Shown one piece after another: positions 5,174-64,000 of a stretch of 64,000 bases of DNA. The notes under the pieces are model-generated. The model saw only the letters and a program-made list of their open reading frames with translations, did not search any database and was not told where the DNA came from. Each line of letters opens with the position of its first letter. Position 1 is the stretch's first letter. A program made the translations under genes and the position numbers. Origin of the DNA: Polytrichum commune (taxonomy: Eukaryota; Streptophyta; Polytrichopsida; Polytrichales; Polytrichaceae); the NCBI GenBank assembly GCA_950295325.1, contig OX485804.1:60666533-60730532 (forward strand). Direction: 5' to 3'.

Positions 5174-7057
5174 CTAGTGAGGGTGGTTTGGGAAATGGTT
5201 TTTATAATGCAACAAGATTGCCAATATCCGAGGAAATACAAGGTTCCTGGTTGTCAACAAAGCTACCTCTAAGTGGCTTCTAGATGCATCTACAAGCACA
5301 AAGAAATATCGGAATGAACCTGATGGAGGGTTGATTGGTCCGCATACATCCCCTTGTAGCCGGTGTAGAGGTGGTGGCAGTTCACTCGATAGTTGCCATT
5401 GGGATGGCCGTTTGATCATCTTTCCGTAGATGCATGCTTCACAAGGTGCCGCTTTGGTGGCGTCAGTTGGTGTAAGGTTATGCCCGGCTAGGAGGGGAAG
5501 CATTTTCCGGAAGATCGTTGTGCCAGGGTGTCCAAGCCTGTTGTGCCATATATCGGGCAGGGTTGCTGCCGTGAGATATAGGCCATGTTTTCTTTTTCTG
5601 GGCTAGATTGGAGGTTCTCGCACCGAGACCGCCCTCCCATGCAACCTTTCCAACCCCTTCCTCATTCCTAAGGGAGGGGCTAATTGCTTTGATAGCAATC
5701 TCGTACAGGCCGTCGGCTCTCACGAATGCGGTGGCAAGGGATCACTGCCCTTGCCGGAGATCCAAAGCCTCTTCATATATTTTTTTAACGTTGTAGAGAT
5801 GTGGATATTATTGGCCCTTAGGTCCCGGTAGTTGATCAGGCTCCGGGGGGCAGTAGGGGCATACATGGCCTTCCTGCATATTATGGGGTGGTCCCCAAGC
5901 AATAATATTGTTACATCACCTTCTTGAAAGCTTAATTTTTTTCGACCAGCAATAGTGGTTCTCGTAGTGGTTACATGACAAGTATTCCACTTTGAAATGC
6001 CTATTGGGAAAGAGAAAAATTGCAAACTCCTTAATATTGTGTGAGTGGAGGCGCTATCTAGGAGAGCGACCTCCAAACTTTGGGTCATTGGAGTCTGTAG
6101 TACCATGAAATTCTCAACATTTACCTCGGATGGAGTGGGTATAGAGACGGCATGCAATTCTCTAATTTGACCAGGGAGTTTTTGTAACTCTCTATCTATC
6201 TCAACTATGTACGTTGAGGCCCGGCAGTCACGAGCAAAATGGCCTTGCCTACCACACTTGTGACAGTTGGAAGAAGATGATTGTGACTGCCTTGGTTGAT
6301 TATGTTTATGAGGAACATACCTTTGTTATTGGTCACGATGTACATGCCTTGGCTGCTTGAAAGGTGGTTGGTGCTCAAAGCCTCTGGGTGTGCGGCGTGG
6401 AGCCTCTAAGAGGTTGACATTAGAAGAGTAGGAGAAATCGTGGCATGGATTTCTCGGGTAGGTCTGGACTCGGCGCTTTTGAGTAAAATTTGCTGATACG
6501 TTTCTCTGCAAGGAGCAGATGCGACATCAGTTGGCTATGCTTCTTGAACTTCATGTTCCTATACTGTTGTGCTAGGATTGCAGTTGTTGGAGGAAAGGTG
6601 GAGAGAATTTTATCTATCAATTGAGTTTTGGTGACTTGCTCCCCACATAATCGAAGTTGTGCGGTGATTCGATGAATTTATGAATTGAAAGATACAAAGT
6701 CGGGGAAGTCCAGTACCCGCAGGTTGATCCAATCATTTATGGCCTGTGGCAGAAATATCGTTTGCTCATGATGGAATCTTACAAGTTGGTCCCACATGTC
6801 AGCAGGATCATCGACTTATATGTATTGTATCTGAGTGATGGTTCTAAATGCTTGTGGAGGACAATTACAGTTTTCCATTTCATGACATCGGGGAGCCCTT
6901 CGGCAGTCTTGGCATAGAGGTAATTAGACAGACCTTCAGCGGCTAGGACCACTTTAGCGTTATTTAGTCACTCTAGAAAATTGGTTCCATCTGCATCTAA
7001 GGGACTAAATAAGAGAGGTTGCAGACGGATATCGGGAGAGTCCATATATGTGGCCAT
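5174..7057 (-). pseudogene. copia gag-pol polyprotein remnant
   Basis: Read from an ATG at 7057. The gag segment holds FSPLDADGTNFLE and KVVLAAEGLSNYL near 7040-6930 and a UBN2-like stretch ([20 protein letters not shown]) near 6610-6550. A CCHC zinc knuckle (CHKCGRQGHFARDC) lies near 6270-6225. An aspartic protease core (LLDSASTHTIL) lies near 6070. The GAG-pre-integrase and integrase start (CEACIYGK, GDVCGPINPPSG, RYFFVLVDAS) lie near 5440-5270. These are the hallmarks of Ty1/copia polyproteins, which copy and integrate the element. Several in-frame stops (for example in gag near 6976) and frame changes near 5480 and 5720 make it a pseudogene. It is cut off after the first part of integrase. 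Confidence 0.8.
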
Positions 7058-36636: not shown

Positions 36637-37412
36637 GTTAAGATCTAGATTCTAAAAACATCATGAAATACACATTCCCTAGGAGTACTCCTCAAAAGAA
36701 AGAACTTGAAGAACAAAGTGGCCTTTAGTATTCAAGAGTGTACCCTAGGTGACCGGCCGATCCGGTCACCGAAGCTCTCTAACTGGCACATGTCCTTTTT
36801 GTGACTGTTAGGACCGCCCGTCCTTCGGCACCCGTTCTTGCACAACACACAATGTGGGACAACCGTCCATGAGGAGTACCGGTCCTTGGGTGGGAAGGAA
36901 GGGCACATGGCACCACCCTCTTTTCACCGGCCCACCCATTTATTTTGAAAAAAACGGACCGGGACTGACACATGGAACTTGGTCCTTATTGTATATGAGC
37001 ACACCTCTCATCCATCCAACACAAAAACTTGACCCCCCTAAAGGTTTGTTGCTGATTCATTTCAAATGATCTTGACTACACTAAATCCGGGTCTTTAAAG
37101 CTAATTTTGATGTCGATTCGACTTTAAAAAAAATCTCTGAACTATATACTATTTCAAGGTTTTTATATTGGATGAATGAGAGGTGTGCTCGTGTGGAATA
37201 ATTTTGTCTCTGTAGAGATGATTTCCTAAAACTTTTTATGCTACTTAGTGTTACTTACTACATGGAATTAACCAATGCTATACCTTTTTTGAGTATAGGG
37301 ATCATTTTTTGCAAACAAAGCACAAATTTTGGGTAGTATGGATGTCTAAAAGGAATGATGTACAAATTATTTGAGGGCAGTTATGTTGGATGAATAAGAG
37401 ATTAAGTCGTAT

Positions 37413-37440
37413 AACACTATATTCGTTAAATTGAGACTTT
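37413..37440 (+). repeat. E1 left terminal inverted repeat
   Basis: 28 bp, identical to the reverse complement of 48486-48513, next to the GTAT target duplication. Confidence 0.93.
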
Positions 37441-37581
37441 TTGGGCATTTTGAGACATTCATAGAAATAAGAACAAGGATAAATGGAACACATATTGGTG
37501 AAAGTTGTAAGATGCGAACACTTTGAAGCGGGTGCTTAGACCAAGAACCCCATTAATAACTCATATTTGTGATGGTATAGG

Positions 37582-38150
37582 GTGGGCAATCGAAACCTTA
37601 GACCAAATTGAAGGGGACATCTTAAAACATTCATATTAATGCACACAAAATATGAGAGCTTGTATGAATATGGTTTAGGTAGGGCAATCCAAACCATAGA
37701 TCTTATTGAAGGGAAAATCTTAAAACATTCATATTAATGCACACAAAATATGAGAGCTTGTATGAATATGGTTTAGGTAGGGCAATCCAAACCATAGATC
37801 TTATTGAAGGGAAAATCTTGAAACATTCATATTAATGCACACAAAATATGAGAGCTTGTATGAATATGGTTTAGGTAGGGCACTCCAAACCATAGATCTT
37901 ATTGAAGGGAAAATCTTAAAACATTCATATTAATGCACACAAAATATGAGAGCTTGTATGAATATGGTTTAGGTAGGGCAATCCAAACCATAGATCTTAT
38001 TGAAGGGAAAATCTTGAAACATTCATATTAATGCACACAAAATATGAGAGCTTGTAATGTATGGTTTAGGTAGGGCACTCCAAACCATAGATCTTATTGA
38101 AGGGGAAATCTTAAAACATTCATATTAATGCACACAATAAGGCACTCCAA
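37582..38150. repeat. 98-bp subterminal tandem repeats of E1
   Basis: Unit starts at 37681, 37779, 37877, 37975 and 38072 give a 98/97-bp period, with a diverged unit before and a truncated one after. Each carries AGGGCA(A/C)TCCAAACCATAG. The right end of E1 has a related word in inverse orientation (GTTTGGAGTGCTCTACCC, 48301-48318). Arrays like this near transposon ends commonly bind transposase. Confidence 0.85.
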
Positions 38151-38313
38151 ACCTTAGACCATATTGAAGGCAAAATCATGTGACACTTATATTATTGCAA
38201 AAAAAACAAAGTATGGCACGTAAAATGCATAGCATGCTAACACCACACATCCATTGGATAGTGCGACCCAAAATCATATTGCCTATGGTCCAAAACCCTA
38301 CGCCTACTATGGC

Positions 38314-38640
38314 CTATCTAGCCTCGGAGACTGCCTCTATTTCTTTTGCCTTTTTTTCTTTTGCCTCTTTTGTTTTTGCTTCTTTTTCTTTTGCTGCGGC
38401 TTCTTTTGCTCGCATTGCTTCAACATTCCTGAAAATCTCCGCCCCGCGACTATAGCCATTTTTGGGTTGACCGCCCTCTATAACACATTTTGGATTCCGT
38501 CGGCCACCCGAATTATACGACGAAGAATTCGAATACGATGAAGTGGACTGTCTTGCATTTTTGGTCATGGAGTAGAAACGCTCCAACTCGACGGACACAC
38601 TAGACCGCATAGGTTTACGGGTGGGAGCAACCTGCAACGC
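38314..38640 (-). CDS. Lys/Glu/Ala-rich coding stretch, possible extra exon
   Basis: Preceded on the minus strand by a good acceptor (CACGCGTTGCAG at about 38641), then VAPTRKPMRSSVSVELERFY, a Ser/Tyr-rich stretch, and a highly charged coiled-coil tail (AKEAAAKEKEAKTKEAKEKK) ending in a stop. It lies 80 bp downstream of the stop of the HAD-like exon. I saw no strong donor before that stop, so it is either an alternative last exon of the same gene, a small separate gene, or unused sequence. No domain recognised. Confidence 0.4.
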   Translation of the reverse strand, partial: ALQVAPTRKPMRSSVSVELERFYSMTKNARQSTSSYSNSSSYNSGGRRNPKCVIEGGQPKNGYSRGAEIFRNVEAMRAKEAAAKEKEAKTKEAKEKKAKEIEAVSEAR

Positions 38641-38719
38641 GTGAATGCAAGAACACACGTGTTAGTTTAGGGAGGAAGACCCAAACGTGTCACATACACA
38701 TACAAACACACGTAGTGTC

Positions 38720-41700
38720 TCAAATGAGCTTGTTAAATTTCGCGTGAGATAACAACTCTCTGTACAAATGGTCTCGTGGATCCAAGTATCTCTCGCCTAT
38801 CGGATTGTTCCTAACAAAATTGTTTACGGGCAGTCCGCTTCCGCAGAGCGCCTGGAGGTATTTACCAAGGTCTAACAAAAATCGGTCCCGGACCTTCTCG
38901 ACCGTCCAGGTAGGGCAAACTATGAGGTTGGCCGTCGGGTTCAACATGTTCTTTGCGGCGCTGTCGTCCACCATGAGCGTGTTCTCGCGGGTGGGACGGA
39001 CGTCGTAGGGGACGCCTATCAAGGACGGCCGCTGGTCCCAAAAAATGGGCTTCAAGACCTTGAGGTATTGGGGGGAAGCGGGGTTGTTTGGTTTTTTGAC
39101 GACTTTGCCGTCCGGTGTGTACAATATTCTACAGGCTTCCTGTGCTAGGACCATGCAGGGGGGCTCGATGCCCTTGAAGATGAACTCCACGACGGCATTG
39201 GTGTTCTCGGCCGTCATGGAGCTCCAAACGACCACCCACCATCGTTGTTGGGCCATCTGGAGGAAGGTCCGAAGCCACGGGCAGAGGTGAACTAGCTTGC
39301 TCTTTATGAACGTGGGCGGGCCGTCGTAATTCGCGTCCGCGGGCTTGCAAAAGGGCACCGTGGGGGTCCTCGGGCAATGAACGCATTGGACGAGGACCCC
39401 GTTCAGGTCTAACACCAGGAATCGTTTCTTCGGCCGCGGGGGCGGGGCGGGTAAAACCGGGGGTGCCGCCGCGCTGCCCTCTCCGCTCCTTGGAGAAGAG
39501 CGTCGGGGAGCCGCTACGCTATGCTCCGAGCCCTGCGGATACGATCGAGAGAAAATGGTGGGTGACTTATGTCATGCTATGTCCAAACGAAGCATTAAAG
39601 AAACGAGTGTTCTCGGTGCAAACACAAAACCATTTGATTCATTTTGGAGGGGGTGCAACAAGGGACACAAGAGAGGCAAGAGCATACAACATACATTCAA
39701 ACACAGGATACAAGTATATAGGAGTAAAAAATGGCGATTATATTATATACAATGCTCTATGTACATCTTGATTGGGGGGAGCCGCGTTGAACGATGCGTT
39801 CAAACTAGCCTACTTCTACATCTAGCAAAAATTGAAGAGACGGGCCGCCGTGATGAAGACTTCGTCGCAAGCCGGGGGGTATGTGGACGAACGAATGGTC
39901 GGGGGGAAGTGGCGAAGGGCGCGAGTGCCGGGGGGGCGACGTGTGCGTGAGTTTAGGGTAGGTAGGGGACACGACCAAGGCAAGAAGTCAAAGACCCAGG
40001 GAGTTTGGGTCGACCGACCCAAACTGAGTGGGGTCAGTGCATTACCTCGCCTTGGTCGTGCCTCGACGACGTTGATGCCGGCATCGCGTGCGTTGCCCCA
40101 CCTCTGTCACCGCCGCCTCCGACGACGACGTCAGCCGCAACCTGCTCCTGCAAAGGCTGACTGTCAGGCCTTTGTCCCAACCCAACCTCCGCATGCGCAT
40201 CATGCATTGGTTCATCGACTGGGTTAGGAGTAGAGGTATCACTAGGCCCTTGCGGGCCTTCAACATCTAACATGGGCTCGTCCACCGGGGTCTGGTCGGG
40301 GACGGGGTTTGGGTCGGCCGACCCAAACCCTGCTGCTTGGCGAGCGTCGCTCTGGGACGCTGCAACGTGGGCACTATTTGGGTCGGACGACCCAAACATG
40401 TGGGGGTCGTCCCGTTGGTGTTGTGGGGGCGAGAGGATGGGAGGCCGGAGCGGCGGGGGTGCCAACGAGCTGGAAGCTCCGGGGACGCGCCAAAGGTTGG
40501 GGTCGTCCACCTGCTGGACGGGCGCGTAAGGGCGGGCGTGCGGCTGCAGCAAGTGCGCGAAGCTGAAGGACTGTTGCGGCGCTGGCCGCGGGCGGATATC
40601 CTGTGGAGGGAAGCCTGCGGGCAAGTGAGGGAATGAACTCGGGGGAGCCATCACCAATCCCTGCGCCAGCATGCCCTGGATCACTTGCGTGATCAAGTCC
40701 GCTTGGGACGGAGGTGGGGCCATCGCCCTTTGCCGCTCCTGCTCCAACAGAAGAGCCCTCAACTCCGCGACTTCGTTGCGGACCGAGGGCTCCTCGGCGG
40801 CGGCCTTTTGCAATCGGACGCGTTGCTCCTCGTCCCGGAGCATCTTCGCGTTGGCCTCCTCCACGGTGAGGACCTCGGGTTTCACCCTCACCATCCCGGC
40901 GAACGCTGTGGGGGAGGCAGGATCCGACCTCAGCCTCTTCGCGAGCTCCATGTCGTCCTCGTCCTCGGAGCTTATGGCGATCGTCTCCTCCACCGCATAA
41001 TCGCTGTATAATTTCTTCCCCTTCAGCATTCGCCGCTCCCTGAAGGTGGCCGTCGCGTCCCTCGAATACATGTCCTTCGCGTCGGCCACCGTGAGGACGG
41101 GCACTAGCTTGCTCTGCGGCGTGGCAGCTCGCATGGCCTTCTTCCGCTGAGGGGCCTCGGATTCTTGAGTGAATCCTGTTGCCCCTTCCTCGACCTCCCC
41201 CTCCACTTTCTCTGCTTCCTCCTCATCCTCCTCTTCCTCCCCCTCCTCCGCAACCTCGCCACCTGCTCCCATAGACGGATTGCCCGGATGCAACCCGATG
41301 AGCGGCTCTGGCAATTGAACGGGGGCGCGCATGGCGAATTCACCCGGGTTGATTCGCCTCGCCATATCCAAAGGATTCTCGCCCCCCTCGACGATCTCTT
41401 CGACGTAGGATCCGGGTATCCAGTCGAGGATGTCCATTCTCTTTGCCAGCGTCTTCTGGGTCCTGTAGAATTGAACATCGGTATCCTCCACATAGGAGTA
41501 GATGTTCAACCCAGACATCTGCACAATCCAAATCAATAGTATTAGTATCACCAATGAAGAATAAGGAAAAATGACACCCAAAAAAACAATAATAGTTAGT
41601 TTGGGTCGCTCGACCCAAACCAGGCATATACATCCACGAGGTTAGTTTCTTACCATTGCTGCAAAAACCGGTTTGGAGCCCCCGACGACGTTGAAGATGA

Positions 41701-44696
41701 AGTCCCCCCTCTTCGTGAGGGTCCTCATCATCCGCAGGTAAAAATCCATCCGCAGCTCATCCGCAGCTCATCCGCGGGGTAGTTGGCGTACTTCGCCTCG
41801 TCGTACAAGCTTCTGCTGGTGCCCAACCCTTCTGGGACTTGGAAAACCTTTCCATCCGGGCTATAGGATGGTTTGGCACCTTCAGCAGCTCAGCTTTGTA
41901 CACGAAGTACAAGCACAACACACAGACTATCTTCGTCTTCTTGTCTTTCAATGAGTTGTACGCCCCCTCCGCCGGTGCAGCAACGTAATGAGATTTTGAG
42001 ACGGCGTACTCTGGTTGCAATTTACGCACGATCTCGTACACCTGCTCCGCCCTCCTGTCCTCGACAATCCACAACCAGACGTCAACCTCCCTGAATTTGG
42101 GGCTGGCGTAGTCCACGAACTTGGTGAAGAATGGCTCGTAAAACGGGGTGCTCATTGTCCCCTCGAATGACGCTCCAGGAATGTTCCTGAAGTCTATCAT
42201 TCCGAAGGGGAAGCGGTCCCCGGCTGCAGTCCTGATCGCCTTCCTAGCATCAGAGCCCGGCCAACCTTGGATCTTTAGAGGCTCAAGGGAGACCAAGTTG
42301 AAGTGAGCTTCGCCCTCGAACCTGACGATCTTCTTCTCCTTTATAAAGTTGGAGAAGGCACGCGCGGAGTGTTCGGGAAGCGCCCGGTTCCTCCCACCCT
42401 TCACGAACTTGGACCTGAGGAAGTCGTCTCCCGCCTCCCTCATGAGTGCCGCCATGGACGCACTGGTGAACTTGTACTCGGCTTTGAATGCCCTCCAGTG
42501 CGCCTCGTCAACCTCTCCGTCCACGATGAGCTTCTTCTCGGGCACCAGCTTGTGCAGCTCTTGGACGATGGTCGTCTTCTTCTTCCTGTTCTCCGTCCAT
42601 TCCTTCAAGGTGTAGCATGAAGGGACGAACATCTTAGGCTTCGTGAAGACGATCTTCGGGTGAACCCAGCATCTCTTCGCCGTCGGCTGCATGTGGAGGA
42701 TGTGGGACGCCGCCTTTCCCACCTCTGTCTCCGAGAGACCTTGAAGAGCTCTGAAGAGCTCCCTCACCAGTGGCTTCATTTGCTTGAAGCGCGTAGTCTG
42801 GTTGTACAGAATGCCGGTGTCGGGATCGATGAGGTCTCCCGTCTCGTGTTTTTCGAAGACAGTCTTCCATTTTGTCCACACGGAGTCGGACGCTGTGATC
42901 AAGTAGATTTCTCCTCTTAGCTCGTTATATTTTTTTTGCTTGTGGCTAGCGTTGTCAATAGAGGAGAATTTATTGATCATCTGGTATTTGAAGTCCTGTA
43001 CATGAAGTCAAGAACATATGTTAGAGAACACATCATGAAAAAAAATGGAACAGCAGTTTGGGTCGATCGACCCAAACTTTAAATCTCATGAAGACTATAA
43101 GACAATCCAGCAGTTTGGATCGATCGACCCAAACTTTAAATGTCATGAAGACTATAAGATAATCCAGCAGTTTGGGTCGATCGACCCAAACTTTAAATCT
43201 CATGAAGACTATAAGACAATCCAAGAGTTTGGGTCGATCGACCCAAACTTTAAATCTGATGAAGACTATAAGACAATCCAAGAGTTTGGGTCGATCGACC
43301 CAAACTTTAAATCTGATGAAGACTATAAGACAATCCAAGAGTTTGGGTCGATCGACCCAAACTTACTCACCTCCCATTTTGGGTTCTTGTCTTTTGCATT
43401 CTCCCTTTCCTTGGGAGGCCTGCCATAGAACTCCCACACATCCCTCGAGGCCATTATATTCCTAATCCAGGATGCCTGATACGCCTTTTTTTTATTCCCC
43501 ATGTTGAAAAACTTGGAGATGTCACTGAGGACGGTCTCGTTGTCCGACCAAACCACCAGTGCCTTCCATACCTTCAGCTTCTCCTTCTGGTTGTTGGGGT
43601 CGTCCCATTCAGTCATCAGCTGGATTTTTTTGGAGGCCTCGACACTGTGCTGGCCATCAATCAACCAGAAATCTCCTTTAGAAATCGCCGGCCACATATC
43701 AGCCGTAGGCATTCTTTTTAGCCCCTGGGGCATCACGACAATTGTCTGCCTGTCGTCCTTGAACTGCCCGCCCAAGATTTGAGCGACCATCCAGTCGACA
43801 TAGGCATCCTCCTTGGCTCGGACACACTTTTCAGGTGGCGCAAGGTGGCATTGTGCAATGTTTACCTCGAACTTGAAGTCCCTGCCCATGAAGAAGCAAT
43901 GGAGGCATTTCGTGTCAAAATTGTCGTTGATTTTCTGAATTTCCCCAGCATCAACCTCTTGGCCAGGCTTGGGCATCCGCAACTCTGGCGAAACTGGCTC
44001 GGTGGTCATGACTGATGACTCCCTTGCCCTTTTCGACGGGGTCGTCTGCCGGCTTCCTGAAGGAGTTGGCGTCTCGCTGTCAGCCGGAGTCGAGGTAGTG
44101 CTCAGTCTTCTAGAATCTGCCGGAACCGCCAGCGGAATCCTCACAGATTGGGGTCTGGAGGAACCTGCTCCTTCTTCTGTCTTGGCCTTCCGCCTGACAG
44201 GCTGTTGCGTTTTTGGTTTGCTTTGCAATGCTTTATTCAAAACCGTGATCGCTTGTTTCAGTTTTGTGAACCTGCTAGCGACCTTGGTGTTCGATACAGT
44301 GCCATCTATGAAGATGGTCTCCAGTTTTATTATCTCCGGGTCAACGCACGTCTCCTTGGCGTATAGGGGGTCGAAAGCCTCGGAGAATTGGTGCATGAAC
44401 ATATGCACGTTCTGCACTGCGGAGTTCTCTAGAATAACGTCAACGTGCTCCCCGAGAGCTTGGACGGAAGCAACCTCCCATCCCGTCAGCGTTGCCCAGG
44501 TGTGTTGCTCGTGGGTCCCCACTTTCACCATGAACAAGAGCTTGTACTGGGAGGCTTTCACAACCTGAACGGACCACGCAAGAACGATCCCGTCCTTTGG
44601 GACGTATGAGTCGTCCTGTGGAGTTTCGTACTCCTCCCAAAGGTGGTCTGGGGCGAGCATGAACCACCTCTCTCCAGGTCTCTTTTTAGTGGCCAT
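38720..44696 (-). CDS. Transposon cargo gene: ParB-like / methyltransferase-like / HAD phosphatase-like protein
   Basis: Four exons, all junctions in phase 0: 44696-43371, 42995-41654, 41518-40046, 39532-38720 (donors GTGAGT, GTAAGA, GTAATG). Exon 1 has a ParB/DGQHR-like motif (FWLIDGQHSVEASKKI, about residues 344-359). Exon 2 into exon 3 resembles an N4/N6 amino-methyltransferase: a DFRNIP where DPPY is expected, DVWLWIVEDRR, then GDFIFNVVGGS and YVEDTDVQFY across the splice. Exon 3 is then acidic and Pro/Gln-rich. Exon 4 is FCP1/NIF-type HAD: LVLDLNGVLV, VVVWSSMTAENTN, LMVDDSAAKNML. LDLNG instead of DxDxT is, as I recall, normal in one plant subgroup. The methyltransferase catalytic motif looks lost. 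Exon 2 has an 11-bp tandem duplication (41751-41772) and a second frame change near 41880, so this copy may be broken. Confidence 0.65.
41599..41620. repeat. Palindrome copy in intron 2
   Basis: GTTTGGGTCGCTCGACCCAAAC, one of twelve related palindromes in E1 (others at 40003, 40307, 40377, six from 43056, 44723, 44807). Confidence 0.9.
43056..43362. repeat. 57-bp tandem array, six palindromes, in intron 1
   Basis: Six units start at 43056, 43113, 43170, 43227, 43284 and 43341, an exact 57-bp period. Each contains the palindrome TTTGGGTCGATCGACCCAAA (one unit has a single change) and a CATGAAGACTATAAGACAAT spacer. Because 57 is a multiple of three, both strands stay open, giving false reading frames with FGSIDPN repeats. 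The splice donor of exon 1 lies 9 bp from the last unit. Confidence 0.92.
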
Positions 44697-44919
44697 CTGT
44701 AAGTCCAGAAACAAAATTGTTAGTTTAGGTCGATCGACCCAAAGTTTTTCAACTTGGATTGAACATCAGTGCAAATTGAAGGGTGCTCTACTGGCCATCA
44801 TGAATAGGTTTGGGTCGACCGACCCAAACCCAAGCCTCGAATAGCCTAATCGTATAAGAATTATTGGTAGAGTTCGGGTCTTAAGAATATGAATATATTG
44901 AATATTGTGTAGTGGCAGA
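44697..44919. promoter_or_regulatory. Divergent promoter region of E1
   Basis: The 223 bp between the two oppositely transcribed E1 genes hold two palindrome copies (44723-44744 and 44807-44830). A splice acceptor (GACTTACAG) directly precedes the minus-strand ATG, so that gene may have a non-coding first exon here. No clear TATA box was assigned. Confidence 0.5.
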
Positions 44920-47900
44920 ATGAATGGGTTTAGTGAAAGAGGGGATTGGTCATCTGAAGATATGGCCACTTGGCCATCTGCATCTGAGGATGAGATAGAC
45001 ATTGTCGGGGAGGATACTTTGGCTGACAGTGCAGATGAAGATCATTTGGATTTACCTTCGCCTTCCGTACCGCAATGTCCCATTGCTGAATGTACGGGAC
45101 TCTCAAGGGCTTCATGGGTGAATTTGGAGGTGGTACTTCTTAATGACAGTGGAGTTGTTGTGGCGGAGGGGATTTGTCGCAACACCCATCCACAAGATTG
45201 CATTGATGAAAACCCGCTTGGCACCGAGGACGTTGGGGTTGTCATATTGGAGTCGCTCGTTCATTCCGAGGTGGATCCCACTCATAGATTCTCCCTCCGG
45301 AGGTGGCCATTGAGGAATGTCACGATTGATGGTGTTTCCTTGTGTGAACATGAGCAACGACACTTGCAAATCCAAAAAGAGCAGCAATCAAACATGCGGC
45401 CACGCAAGGGTCAAAGAAAGTACGATACATTGGCACGTCCTGCTCCGTCTGCAACTGATTGTAAACGTCAAAGGTTGCTCGGGGAGGAGTCCATTAGAGA
45501 AGTTGCCACAAAGGATTGTTGTGTGCATCGTTGTTGCCAATTGTTTCCCCGGGATAAATTGTTGGCCATCCGCGAAGAAATGTGGCTTGGTGATTTCCGT
45601 CTAAGATCCACCAAAAAACTTGATGTGCATAGGGCGATACATGTGAATGGGGCGGGTCGCAAGGTCATCACCATTGAGAGCATAGACGTGTGTTGCAAGG
45701 CATGGTACACCATTCATGGTGTGTCGAAAGCGGACTTTTATAGACAAGCTGCTTATGCCAAGGAAGGCTGCCGGTCCCGTCACCATGGGAACGTGGGTTT
45801 AAAGAAACCTAGGGAAGCAACAAGGCAAGCAACGGCCACTCTAGCAACCATAATTGTCCCACTTGCCGATGCAATGCCGCACAAAACACGCACACTCACA
45901 ACTGGTGAAAAGGTTGTGGAGAAAGTTCTTCCCACAGGCACAAAATGGAAAGACATATTGTTGGATGTAAATGCAGTTGGGGAGAAGATTGGGTTGGAGC
46001 CAATTTCATCGTCAAAATTGAGTGCAATCAAGAAAGCAAACTTCAGCGAATACATTACAAAAAGACGAGGGGACAAATTTGCAAGGTGCTCTAATTGCGA
46101 GAAGTTGAAGCGCCTTCGGGATGCACATACGATGGGTACCGAGTCGTTTGCGGTGCATCAATTGAACTATTTCAAGCACGTAAACATGCAAGAGGCACAC
46201 CGTAATGATTACTACACAAATAGAGCATTGTCCATCTCCAGGCCCTTGGAAGTTCTTACGGTCATCCATGACAAAATGGACCATGCCAAGACAGCCTCCC
46301 CATGTTTTGCAAAACGAATCAAGGCCACAGATGGGTTTTTTAAGTTGCCTGTATCGGTTACAGGTGATCTTCGAAACAATGTTGACATACCCTAAATATT
46401 GTTGTATTTTATTATGTGATGTACTTGAGAACATTGATTCACTCAAAACGATTTAGACATACATAGATACTAATCACTTTGGGTTGGCATTGTAGGAATG
46501 ATTGCACATGGATACGGTGATGTCAAGTTTGCCCATTATGCTCTTGATTTGTATCCAGCAGATTCAAACCACACGATAGGGTCATTTGCAAGGCTTTTGC
46601 GTGATTTAGAGAAACCGCCAGCCTATTCTTCAGGATTGTTATTTGAAAATACGGGTTCAACACCTTTATATGAAGCAGTGATGGATGGAAAAGATGTATG
46701 CTTGCATTCGTTGCCCGAACCACCCAGTGAACCCGTGATAGCCAAGAAGTTGCCCCCCACTTTGCGTGTCCAATTGGACAATTGTGCCAAGGACAATAAA
46801 AGTAGATATGTATTTGCATATTGGTCGTTGTTGGTTGCGAAAGGCATTTTCAAGGAGGTTTTTGTGTCCTTCCTATTGGTAGGCCACACGCACGACGATA
46901 TTGATGCATCTTTTGGACGGTGGAGCATGAAGTTGCGGGAGGAGGATTTTCCTATAATCCCGTTATTGATGAAGTCATACATGGATTTGAAGAACGTTCC
47001 CGTCATCCCCCATATGATTGAGGAGGTGCCAGACTTCAAGGCATTTATAGAACCTTATATTCGAAGTGGAGCTCATCGATTGATTGGCCATACGAAGGCA
47101 CAACAATTCCGGTTCTACATGCGTGACGATGGTGTCCCGGCCATGCAATACAAGTTGTTGTGCACGACACAAGACTGGAGCCCGCCAGAGGGTCTCCTTG
47201 TGTGGTGCGTGGATGCAGATGGGAAGACCATGTTACCGGATGGAGAGCCTAGGCCTTGCAAGCCAATAGCCATGAAGAATTTGGAGGATATTTTGAAAGG
47301 TATATCAGGCTTCATTCAATATTGGGAGAGTTTGAAGATAGCGGATGTTGGCGGATCATGTTGGCATCATTATGGGAGTTGGATACATTATTGGACACGT
47401 GTTCGTGCGGCCTTGGCAGACCTCCACCAAGATAGCCCTCATACTTTGAGGCACGGATTTTGGCCACAAACTCGTATCGATGTACAAGCTTCGGAGGCTA
47501 GTCTTTTGAGTAATGGAGAGGTTCGTGAGGAGTTTGATATGGACGACCATTACGTTGGGCCTGCTAGTCAACGTCCCCCACCATCTTTCCGCATTGCAGT
47601 GGATTGTCATGAAGGTTATATGCTCATTTTGCGTCCTGGAGATGAGACATATGCAAAGCCAGTGTGGGTGGCAAGAGCTTTGTCCAATCCAAATTTTGTA
47701 TCTTCCAGCCCTCATTTTCGACAAATACAAGTAGAGTACTACCGACCGACAGCACGGAATGAAGATGTTGTTCGGCATTATACAGGCTGGGATACAAACC
47801 CTAACTTTCGGTGGAAGGTGGATTCTGAGCACGGTCCATCTTGGGTAGATACAGATTCCATATTCATAGCATGGAAACCACGGAAAAATCATAGTGGATC

Positions 47901-47982
47901 AGTGTCCATCCCTCAAAAGTACATAACTTTTGCAAAAGACAACCTTGCTCGGATCGCAGAAGAAGCAACCCACGTTGAATGA
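44920..47982 (+). CDS. DUF7869-like putative transposase (D2), two exons
   Basis: Exons 44920-46363 and 46496-47982, joined by a 132-bp phase-1 intron (CAG/GTGATC...TTGTAG, branch-like TACTAAT at 46468-46474), give 976 residues. The start is the first ATG (MNGFSERGDW). The order is: acidic N-terminus; Cys cluster CCVHRCC (about 200-206); a CSNC pair (390-393); VIHDKMDH (448-455); YALDLYPAD; VQLDNCAKDNK with Asp576; VGHTHDDID (Asp615/616/618); and a C-terminal BAH/SH3-like stretch with Trp-rich text (GWDTNPNFRW, WKPRKN). LDNC..N and GHTHxDID are, from memory, the hallmarks of DUF7869. I infer an RNase H-like D-D-D site and a cut-and-paste role in the nucleus. The frame is intact, so it may still be active. 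Confidence 0.8.
46364..46495 (+). other. Intron of the D2 gene
   Basis: It interrupts ...LPVSVTG / MIAHGYGD. The related pseudogene at 12915-14560 reads straight through the same place (LPHSVACMMAHKHRD), so this intron is not shared. Confidence 0.85.
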
Positions 47983-48473
47983 GAAGTTGGTAGGATTGTG
48001 TTAGCATGATTATAGTGTAAACAGTAATTCGACGAATATATATTACTCATATGTGTGCTCCTCAAACTTGGGGCAAAGTTTGGGTAGAACTTGCGAATGC
48101 TATATTGTTTGGGGTTGGATGAATATCCATTTACTATATTTCAATACAATTGTGAAGTTCATTTTTTTATTAAGTTTGGGACTAAATTTTCCATTGAAGA
48201 AATATGCATTTATTGCATGCACTTTGTATGTTGCAATGTCTATATTTTATTGACCATGCTAATAATAGAAATCATTTTATATGTTTTTTGGGTGAAACTA
48301 GTTTGGAGTGCTCTACCCAAAGTGTTTTTGTTGATGAGGTTGGTGTTGAGTGCTCTACCATATGTGCTTATGTCCACACATAATAGATTTGGGATATTAG
48401 AACATATAATATATTTGAGATTGTTCGCAATATAGTTTCGGAACACGGAATGTTGTTTGATCCATATATTAAT

Positions 48474-48495
48474 TTGAGACTAGAGAAAGTCTCAA
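48474..48495. repeat. Hairpin at the right end of E1
   Basis: TTGAGACT and AGTCTCAA, 8-bp arms around a 6-bp loop, overlap the inner part of the right inverted repeat. The same hairpin is in E2. The left end of E1 lacks it. Confidence 0.8.
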
Positions 48496-48513
48496 TTTAA
48501 CGAATATAGTGTT
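48486..48513 (-). repeat. E1 right terminal inverted repeat
   Basis: 28 bp, perfect complement of the left end, followed by the GTAT duplication. Confidence 0.93.
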
Positions 48514-49238
48514 GTATACAACAAACCCCTCTTGCCACCCCAAGTGGTACAAAGAGTGAAGAAAGCTTCATTCTAAAGCTTGCATGTTGGCTTGCCTTGA
48601 CTGCAACAACATGGGTTTTAGGGTCGCTTTACGCCATGGACCATGAACTCTAACCAGGGTGTTGTATGGGCATTTATTGGCTGTTGAACTCATCCAGGGA
48701 CCACTTTGGTTTACACCAAGGAGTGGCAAAGTGACCATGAAGGTCAAGGTCCCCAAAAGACACATTTTAAGGCCTAATTAATACATTGAAATGGTCCAAC
48801 GGGTTTTGAGGTGAGAGAGGCAAGAGAGGTGGTTTGGAAGGAAAAGACAAAGGCCCATGGAAGAGCCTAGAGGCCCATGGAAAGTGCCGTAATAATAATA
48901 TTAATGAATTTTTTTCTTGGGGGCTTTATATACAACTCTTCCCACTAGGTAGGGCTCAAAAGGCATACTTTTCAACATCTATGTGATGTAATGAATTTTG
49001 AGAAACAAGTCCACACTTTATGTGCCTTGATCATATCATAGGCCATGAGACACACTATTTCTTCCATGCCCTACCCCTTAAATTGGCTCCCACATGTTTC
49101 ACCAAACAATGTGGGACATTTAGAACTCAAGAATTCAAGTACACATGGTGAATCGGGTTGCAAATAATGCTCAATGTACAATACAAGGTACATGTCACAT
49201 GTAAATTACATTGAACATGTACAAATTAAATCGCTCAT

Positions 49239-62064: not shown

Positions 62065-62092
62065 AACACTATATTCGTTAAATTGAGACTTT
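62065..62092 (+). repeat. E2 terminal inverted repeat
   Basis: Identical to the E1 terminal repeat. Confidence 0.93.
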
Positions 62093-62595
62093 CTCTAGTC
62101 TCAAATTAATATATGGATCAAACAACATTCCGTGTTCCGAAACTATATTGCGAACAATCTCAAATATATTATATGTTCTAATATCCCAAATCTATTATGT
62201 GTGGACATAAGCACATATGGTAGAGCACTCAACACCAACTTCATCAATAAAAACACTTTGGGTAGAGCACTCCAAACTAGTTTCACCCAAAAAACATATA
62301 AAATGATTTCTATTATTAGCATGGTCAATAAAATATAGACATTGCAACATACAAAGTACATGCAATAAATGCATTTTTCTTCAATGGAAAATTTAGTCCC
62401 AAACTTAATAAAAAAATGAACTTCACAATTGTATTGAAATATAGTAAATGGATATTCATCCAACCCCAAACAATATAGCATTCGCAAGTTCTACCCAAAC
62501 TTTGCCCCAAGTTTGAGGAGCACACATATGAGTAATATATATTCGTCGAATTACTGTTTACACTATAATCATGCTAACACAATCCTACCAACTTC

Positions 62596-64000
62596 TCATT
62601 CAACGTGGGTTGCTTCTTCTGCGATCCGAGCAAGGTTGTCTTTTGCAAAAGTTATGTACTTTTGAGGGATGGACACTGATCCACTATGATTTTTCCGTGG
62701 TTTCCATGCTATGAATATGGAATCTGTATCTACCCAAGATGGACCGTGCTCAGAATCCACCTTCCACCGAAAGTTAGGGTTTGTATCCCAGCCTGTATAA
62801 TGCCGAACAACATCTTCATTCCGTGCTGTCGGTCGGTAGTACTCTACTTGTATTTGTCGAAAATGAGGGCTGGAAGTTACAAAATTTGGTTTGGACAAAG
62901 CTCTTGCCACCCACACTGGCTTTGCATATGTCTCATCTCCAGGACGCAAAATGAGCATATAACCTTCATGACAATCCACTGCAATGCGGAAAGATGGTGG
63001 CGGACGACTACTAGCAGGCCCCACGTAATGGTCGTCCACATCAAACTCCTCACGAACCTCTCCATTACTCAAAAGACTAGCCTCCGAAGTTTGTACATTG
63101 ACACGTGTTTGTGGCCAAAACCCATGCCTTAAAGTAAGGGGTGTATCTTGATGAAGGTTTGCCAAAGCGCCACGAACACGTGTCCAATATTGTATCCAAC
63201 TTCCGTAACGAAGCCAACACGATCCACCAACATCCGCTACCCTCAAACTCTCCCAATATTGTATGAAGCCTGATATGCCTTTACAAATGTCCTCCAAATT
63301 CTTCATGGGTATTGGTTTGCAAGGCTTAGGCTCTCCGTCAGGCAACATCGTCCTTCCCTCCCCATCAACACGCCATACAAGGAGACCCTCCGGCGGGCTC
63401 CAGTCTTGTGACGTGCACAACAACTTATATTGCATGGCGGGGACACCATCGTCACGCACGTAGAACCGAAATTGTTGTGCCTTCGTATGTCCGATCAATC
63501 GGTGAGCTCCGCTTCGAATATACGGTTCTATAAATGCCTTGAAGTCTGGAACCTCCTTGATCATATGGGGGATGATGGGAATGTTCTCCAAATCCATGTA
63601 CGACTTCATCAACAATGGGATTGTCGGAAAATCCTCCTCGCGCAACTTCATGCTCCACCGCCCAAAAGATGCATCGATATCGTCGTGCGTGTGGCCTACC
63701 AATAGAAAGGACACAAAAACCTCCTTGAAAATGCCTTTCACAACCAACAATGACCAATATGCAAAAACATATCTACTTTTATTGTCCTTCGCACAATTGT
63801 CCAATTAGACACGCAGAGTTGGGGGCAAATTCTTGGCAATCACATCTTCACTTGGTGGCTCCGGCAATGAATGCACGCATACATCTCTTCCATCCAAGAC
63901 CGCTTCATATAGAGGTGTTGATCCCGAGTTTTCAAATAACAATCTTGATGAATAGGACGGCGGTTTCTCCAAATCACGTAAAAGCTTTGCAAATGACCCT
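62596..64000 (-). pseudogene. DUF7869-like transposase copy D3, one nonsense change, partial
   Basis: Nearly identical to the second exon of D2, including LLVGHTHDDIDASFGRW, the LDNCAKDNK block and the BAH/SH3-like C-terminus ending EEATHVE. At 63808-63810 the codon before LDNC is TAA where D2 has CAA (Gln), a single C-to-T change that truncates the protein just before a probable catalytic Asp. The frame is otherwise open to the window edge. Recent loss of function is likely, or a sequencing error. Confidence 0.85.

Follow-up and report, generated by a model that had tools for sequence, protein, structure and literature searches.

The 64,000-nucleotide stretch of the Polytrichum commune genome analysed here (hereafter the window; assembly GCA_950295325.1, contig OX485804.1, positions 60,666,533 to 60,730,532) carries, at positions 37413-48513 of its plus strand, an 11.1-kb DNA transposon, which is one mobile unit and an internally deleted derivative of a larger family of about 400 copies, as judged by their ends. 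The element holds a plus-strand gene for a DUF7869 protein, probably the transposase, and a divergently oriented gene on the minus strand, and an exact 22-bp palindrome recurs in its interior. It is best read as a Sola-like giant transposon with an accessory gene and not, on present evidence, as the founder of a new superfamily. Overall, we favour, with a probability of roughly 0.5, a Sola-like family in which a DUF7869 transposase would be accompanied by a self-recognition accessory, encoded by the minus-strand gene and acting via the palindrome.

The left end (37413-37440, plus strand) and the right end (48486-48513, minus strand) are perfect 28-bp terminal inverted repeats (TIRs) of the sequence AACACTATATTCGTTAAATTGAGACTTT, and the 4-bp target-site duplication (TSD) GTAT flanks them at 37409-37412 and 48514-48517. 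Ends and duplication had been described in the original prediction and were read directly in the window. Subterminal tandem repeats of ~98 bp lie close to the left end (37571-38137, plus strand). When the 28-bp end was searched across the window with up to seven mismatches, the sole further match was located at 62065, the end of a second element termed E2, whose right end, together with a portion of its DUF7869 gene, occupies 62065-64000 on the minus strand. E2, predicted to be an independent second copy, is complete at 16.45 kb and flanked by a separate ATTT duplication; about 14.5 kb of it lie past the window end, and it carries its own copy of the minus-strand gene. In comparison to the 17.1-kb copy A, to which it is 98.15% identical in an alignment of 10,996 bases that takes in short flanks, the window copy lacks ~5.6 kb at its centre between the two genes (junction at 44906-44915) and ~0.56 kb in the minus-strand gene (approximate junction at 38692-38694), where the full copies feature a minus-strand open stretch of 170 aa in A and 143 aa in E2.

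The family was traced through the 408-Mb assembly of 64 contigs, in which the window lies on the contig designated C2. GRAS-family genes, which are typical of land plants, gave 70 matches in this assembly and none in 14 control genomes, in keeping with a land-plant host. The first 25 bases of the end, with up to one mismatch, occur 395 times in forward and 407 times in reverse orientation (control 0), and probes comprising 188 bp of the left and 214 bp of the right end yielded at least 40 matches each at 98-100% identity. Among the first 100 ends listed, 38 adjacent plus/minus pairs within 60 kb span 3.6-44 kb with a median of 17.4 kb (14.4-18.5 kb in 24 of the 38), so that 11.1 kb is not the typical length of the family. 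A short relative of 3.6 kb is located at C1:11508363-11511968. At roughly 17 kb per copy, the estimated ~400 copies would amount to near 7 Mb, i.e., about 1.7% of the genome. Nine copies were compared, namely the window copy (W), A to G and E2; those other than E2 are 95-98% alike, and the extra length of the long copies F and G includes stretches of ~14 and ~17 kb inside the minus-strand gene. The 28-bp ends are perfect in all three copies measured (W, A, and E2). Seven of the nine (W, A, B, C, F, G, and E2) possess both exact ends and all seven are bordered by exact 4-bp duplications (GTAT, ACAA, ATTT, AAAT, ATGG, TTTT, and ATTT), with D and E left out of this scoring because their left end differs from the 28-mer. 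Ten further end pairs, taken in list order, contributed nine exact duplications and one reading AGTA/ACTA, which gives 16 exact duplications in 17 elements scored overall.

Insert-free sites add to this picture. For the element at C1:26567254, its flanks joined with one TTTT, 27 of 29 matches were insert-free at 68-91% identity and the remaining two were the element's own flanks. With the window flanks joined by one GTAT, one of three matches ran uninterrupted across the junction (78% over 69 bases), the other two again being the own flanks. These joined-flank searches cover two of the 17 constructs made, one of them trimmed to 177 bases. The insert-free matches are paralogous empty sites. The prediction of one mobile unit is thus borne out by the duplications, the insert-free sites and the genome-wide ends, and only its length of 11.1 kb does not stand as a family norm.

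Both genes travel together, as had been proposed from the window copy alone. Sequence of both is present in all nine copies, i.e., E2 and the seven others besides W, and no copy without the minus-strand gene was found among them; the gene is interrupted in F and G, and part of its exon 1 is missing from G. Moreover, 54 of the 92 near-full matches to exon 1 of the minus-strand gene that were listed have a divergently oriented, likewise listed exon 2 of a DUF7869 gene no more than 30 kb away, at a median distance of 8.5 kb. This count, a lower bound among the matches listed, compares with a mean of 0.24 and a maximum of 3 in 200 trials of a shift control, and same-strand neighbours numbered four. 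Two separate insertions sharing their ends, considered as an alternative origin of the window element, are ruled out by the exact duplications, the insert-free sites and the divergent gene pairing. As a further observation, 11 matches to DUF7869 exon 2 share the score 1149.6 and eight matches to exon 1 of the minus-strand gene share the score 957.1, identical values pointing to a recent burst.

The DUF7869 gene comprises exon 1 (44920-46363) and exon 2 (46496-47983), both on the plus strand, which after splicing form a stop-free frame of 976 codons. Exon 2, the putative transposase core, matches PF25273 (DUF7869) with an E-value of 6.5e-39 and 133.9 bits, the Pfam cut-off being 26. While the domain match seen in the original prediction stands, the transposase role assigned along with it is probable, judging from the place of the gene in an element with proper ends, and candidate Asp residues for a DDD triad were picked out by eye only. 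Of 1491 candidate matches to DUF7869 in the genome, 150 were scored, and 14 control genomes gave none; the open frames vary in size (692, 677, 540, 502 aa and others), suggesting that several families exist in the genome. No paper in the collection searched mentions DUF7869 by name. Other DUF7869 genes are located at C3:1632694, C6:41940433, C7:2075344 and elsewhere, some of which fit the Pfam model better than the gene in the window.

The minus-strand gene extends from 44696 down to 38317. Reading from the N-terminus, it consists of an exon with a DGQHS motif and weak ParB likeness (exon 1, 43371-44696), exon 2 (41654-42995; methyltransferase-like by eye only), a Pro/Glu-rich linker (exon 3, 40046-41518), an exon with a NIF/HAD phosphatase domain (exon 4, 38720-39532, its low end being that of the open frame) and probable C-terminal exons, one of which is an open frame at 38317-38661 that is also found in A and E2. 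This exon model was applied to seven copies (W, A, B, C, D, E, and E2), with F and G left out. In copy B, exons 1-3 join without a stop, and the frame extends 263 codons further, into the phosphatase exon; the joined exons contain two stops in E2, 13 each in W and E, 14 in A, 23 in D, and 43 in C. The frame of exon 2 is broken in the window copy, where this exon measures 1342 nt versus 1332 nt in B, C, E, and E2.

The three domains first suggested for the minus-strand protein, i.e., ParB, methyltransferase and HAD phosphatase, fared differently. The match to the phosphatase domain PF03031 is solid (E 1.1e-12, 48.4 bits with a cut-off of 21.8; 51.6 bits in E2), the ParB likeness is weak and the methyltransferase label is unsupported. 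Motif I of NIF-type HAD phosphatases is DxDx(T/V). In W, A, and E2 it reads DLNGV, which departs from this pattern, and phosphatase catalysis is therefore doubtful. By eye, exon 2 shows FGGSKPVYAAM and, past the intron, MSGLNIYSYxED, which we take to resemble the motif I region of beta-class amino-methyltransferases, a likeness that no search supports. N4C/N6A DNA methyltransferases share the catalytic motif [DNS]PP[YFW], which was not seen in the minus-strand gene, where DFRNIP stands at a possible position. PDB profile searches with two-sequence alignments returned nothing credible, PADLOC gave no match, and scans of IMG/VR with four exons found no viral relatives. Elsewhere in the genome, a clear amino-methyltransferase is encoded by another family, L073 (C1:9662150-9662797; PF01555 at 32.4 bits; the 577-aa frame contains DIPY and DLSVGTG). 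The genome contains 83 PF01555 matches at E<=1, of which five exceed the cut-off (two chromosomal and three on contigs C10 and C12) and the rest are mostly short and weak; the strongest ones are on C10 and C12, perhaps bacterial contigs in the assembly.

The minus-strand gene is clearly under purifying selection. The ratio of nonsynonymous to synonymous divergence (dN/dS) was measured between E2 and the other eight copies, several frames being shortened by decay in single copies. It amounts to 0.04-0.06 in exon 2 (8/8 comparisons), 0.10-0.11 in exon 3 (6/8 comparisons, with 0.01 and 0.03 in two short ones) and 0.18-0.20 in the phosphatase exon. For exon 1, synonymous sites are saturated in seven of the eight comparisons, and the eighth, comprising 94 codons, gave 0.05. 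In the DUF7869 gene, the corresponding values are 0.22-0.24 for exon 1 and 0.12-0.22 for exon 2. The idea of a minus-strand gene more constrained than the transposase was dropped, as the lower ratio rests on near-saturated synonymous divergence (dS); in addition, recent decay of single copies bears more on the less diverged half of the element. Purifying selection makes it likelier that the gene is a functional accessory than that it is passenger DNA. Between E2 and the family of W, synonymous divergence falls from left to right, from saturation in exon 1 of the minus-strand gene to 0.2-0.4 in the DUF7869 gene, suggesting mosaic elements in which the exchange of the right half between lineages is the more recent one.

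A further feature of the family, absent from the original prediction, is the 22-bp palindrome GTTTGGGTCG-NN-CGACCCAAAC, which is present in 9,231 exact copies genome-wide (control 0). Its core, TTTGGGTCG-NN-CGACCCAAA, is found at 10 sites in the window element and at 14-34 in each of the eight other copies; with the outer G and C included, 184 of these 186 core sites are full 22-bp palindromes. In the window copy, one site lies 5' of the minus-strand gene (44808-44829), five exact ones are part of an array of 57-bp units in intron 1 (43056-43362), one is located in intron 2 (41599-41620), two in exon 3 (40307-40397) and one in intron 3 (40003-40024). The same arrangement recurs in the seven modelled copies: exon 3 has two palindromes and intron 3 one, intron 2 holds 1-6 and intron 1 holds 2-8. 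Exons 1 and 2 and those from 4 onward have none, and the remainder (a single one for W, 10-19 for the other six) is upstream of the gene or in the central region. Among the first 100 palindromes listed, 61 are situated in two exact-ended elements and another 16 are at most 17 kb from an exact end that has no partner. The conservation of the palindrome looks like selection for a bound protein, and its dyad suggests binding by a dimer. Two observations were made beyond the compared copies: nine palindromes with ~78-bp spacing are found in the flank of an element end on contig C5 (C5:2478007 region), implying that another palindrome-bearing sequence adjoins that element, and the L073 methyltransferase family has no palindrome in 3.5 kb.

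How the parts of such an element could work together is suggested by comparison. A parallel exists among the VANDAL elements, which are Mutator-like transposons. The accessory protein VANC21 of Arabidopsis is described as binding a short motif concentrated in VANDAL21, the element that encodes it, where the motif occupies introns and non-coding parts in fast-changing tandem repeats (PMC5735166), and its binding accompanies a loss of methylation (PMC5735166, PMC10398659). The likeness is one of anatomy and consists in an element-encoded accessory and a short motif dense in the own element; the motif of VANDAL21 is a non-palindromic 9-base sequence, whereas the family described here has a 22-bp palindrome with two coding sites. 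Closest by layout is Sola1-1_Ec32 of the brown alga Ectocarpus, a 21.5-kb element with a gene on the opposite strand for a 1104-aa protein combining ParB-like DNA-binding and DNA methyltransferase domains, which its authors suggest binds and modifies the DNA of its own element (PMC12477816). Both are giant elements with a second gene opposite to the transposase strand. In contrast to the algal element, the window family has a land-plant host, a NIF phosphatase-like domain in a longer frame and no detectable methyltransferase; the part of the published account available to us mentions neither a phosphatase-like fusion nor palindrome arrays (PMC12477816).

The anatomy shared in kind with VANC21 and the layout of Sola1-1_Ec32 lead us to interpret the minus-strand gene as an accessory for self-recognition that probably targets the palindrome. 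In the proposed mechanism, the DUF7869 protein would act on the 28-bp ends as the transposase, while the divergent gene would provide one long protein made up of a DGQHS/ParB-like stretch, a constrained central part and the NIF-type phosphatase-like domain. This protein could bind the palindromes grouped within the introns of its gene and in the centre of the element and, once bound, alter chromatin or DNA modification there, which might allow the family to escape silencing as VANC does for VANDAL21. A more specific variant, ParB/parS-like self-marking, is conceivable and tentative at best: a ParB-like fusion with a phosphatase-like tail would bind the thousands of identical palindromes in the family and its kin, spread from them and mark copies throughout the genome as "self", thereby shielding them from silencing or coordinating their movement.

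Several points weigh against the accessory interpretation. Binding of the minus-strand protein to the palindrome is putative and argued from analogy. Its ParB likeness comes from a sub-threshold match to PHROG 1033 (E 0.019 with an E2 segment, 0.05 with a longer one), which is absent with the window copy's own segment as query, and searches of Pfam, NCBIfam, PADLOC and PDB gave no ParB match. No methyltransferase profile match (PF01555) was obtained, including across the spliced junction of exons 2 and 3, and comparison with the clear methyltransferase of L073 revealed no similarity (hhalign probability 0.2%). The low ratio of exon 2 was taken at a near-saturated dS of 1.6-2.1, and in terms of dN alone the minus-strand gene (0.08-0.09) is close to exon 1 of the DUF7869 gene (0.09-0.10) and above its exon 2 (0.03-0.06). 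Single-sequence AlphaFold models of the element proteins were unusable, with a mean predicted local distance difference test (pLDDT) score of 32, and the Sola likeness is one of ends, duplications and size. Finally, by hand count, 23 of the first 100 palindromes listed are outside exact-ended elements. One array among these, L074, lies next to 1.37 kb that match the middle of copy E at 97% identity, which places some of the outlying palindromes, at the least, in related sequence.

The palindromes could also be sites of the DUF7869 transposase itself, e.g., internal enhancer-like or synapsis sites, with the minus-strand gene serving another role. Since both genes occur in the same copies, the palindrome could serve either, and the transposase is the part in which E2 and the family of W are closest, the palindrome core being common to both. 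However, transposase sites would be expected near the ends, and no palindrome was found within the terminal 1.5 kb of the element at any of the 24 end loci scanned; in copy A they are missing from the outermost 3.0 kb at the left end and 4.1 kb at the right end, and the sites cluster in the introns of the minus-strand gene and in the central region instead. We regard this explanation as doubtful, though as the most probable of the alternatives. An unlikely option is that a host protein binds the palindromes or that they serve as targets of silencing, kept only through the spread of the element. Tandem repeats can attract host silencing according to the work on VANDAL21 (PMC5735166), and CpG transitions account for 18 of the 88 core changes in near-sites with up to three core mismatches. 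On the other side, 184 of these 244 near-sites are perfect, and neither half-site was found in the 50,963 window bases outside the element.

Slippage or tandem duplication could likewise have generated the palindromes as by-products to which no protein binds. The variation in number from 10 to 34 between copies is what slippage would give, and with copies 95-98% alike outside E2, much of the identity reflects recent descent. What makes this origin quite improbable is that one 20-bp core recurs in unlike repeat units (32-36, 57, 64-79 bp and others, with unlike spacers) and is preserved at three sites shared by A and E2 (a pair in exon 3 and a third in intron 3), where 60/60 core positions agree as compared to 377/493 in the flanks (24% different), albeit at sites picked by an exact core in both copies, which favours such a result. 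Least probable of all, and very unlikely, is that the minus-strand gene is captured host cargo that hitch-hikes with the element. Such a phosphatase domain could be captured by a plant transposon, and the frame is broken in the window copy and, by the same model, in A, C, D, and E. Against this stand the dN/dS values obtained when E2 is compared with the other copies (0.04-0.06 for exon 2, 0.18-0.20 for the phosphatase exon), as well as the presence of the gene's sequence in 9/9 copies.

The original prediction further held that no plant transposon superfamily with such a combination had been described, which is doubtful in view of the Sola-type features and of the gene layout already in print for Sola1-1_Ec32. 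Sola elements are reported to encode a DDD transposase, to generate 4-bp TSDs and to exceed 15 kb in some cases, and they are known from the moss Physcomitrella (PMC10741241). The window family shares with this superfamily, including Sola1 of Physcomitrella, the 4-bp TSD, a TIR length within the range of 11-1124 bp, the size of >15 kb seen in some members and the occurrence in mosses (PMC10741241, PMC9033089). Another candidate is the CMCT group, comprising CACTA/EnSpm, Mirage, Chapaev, and Transib, in which TSDs of 2-5 bp are reported to occur (PMC12730594). The ends of the family contain CACTA and its TSD length is within the range of that group; however, an invariant AA outside CACTA belongs to the element, no CACTA-type Pfam match was obtained and the C(2)C...H(3-4)H motif was not seen by eye. 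A CACTA element with a 3-bp TSD is ruled out by this AA, invariant in the aligned copies, and by the 4-bp TSDs. KDZ/Zisupton was likewise rejected, as the TSD given for Zisupton is 8 bp (PMC12730594) and that of the window family 4 bp.

Transposon accessories with prokaryote-type domains have already been reported from algae and proposed to bind or modify their own element (PMC12477816). The land-plant element described here supplies a candidate target for such an accessory in the form of an exact palindrome with its 9,231 copies, which renders the suggestion testable. If true, it would represent sequence-specific self-recognition of a transposon outside the VANDAL/VANC system.

Apart from the two elements, the window features open frames on the minus strand at 1-609 and 779-1336, which by eye are F-box/kelch-like, and another at 5723-6325 on the same strand, which contains a CCHC zinc knuckle and appears gag-like by eye.

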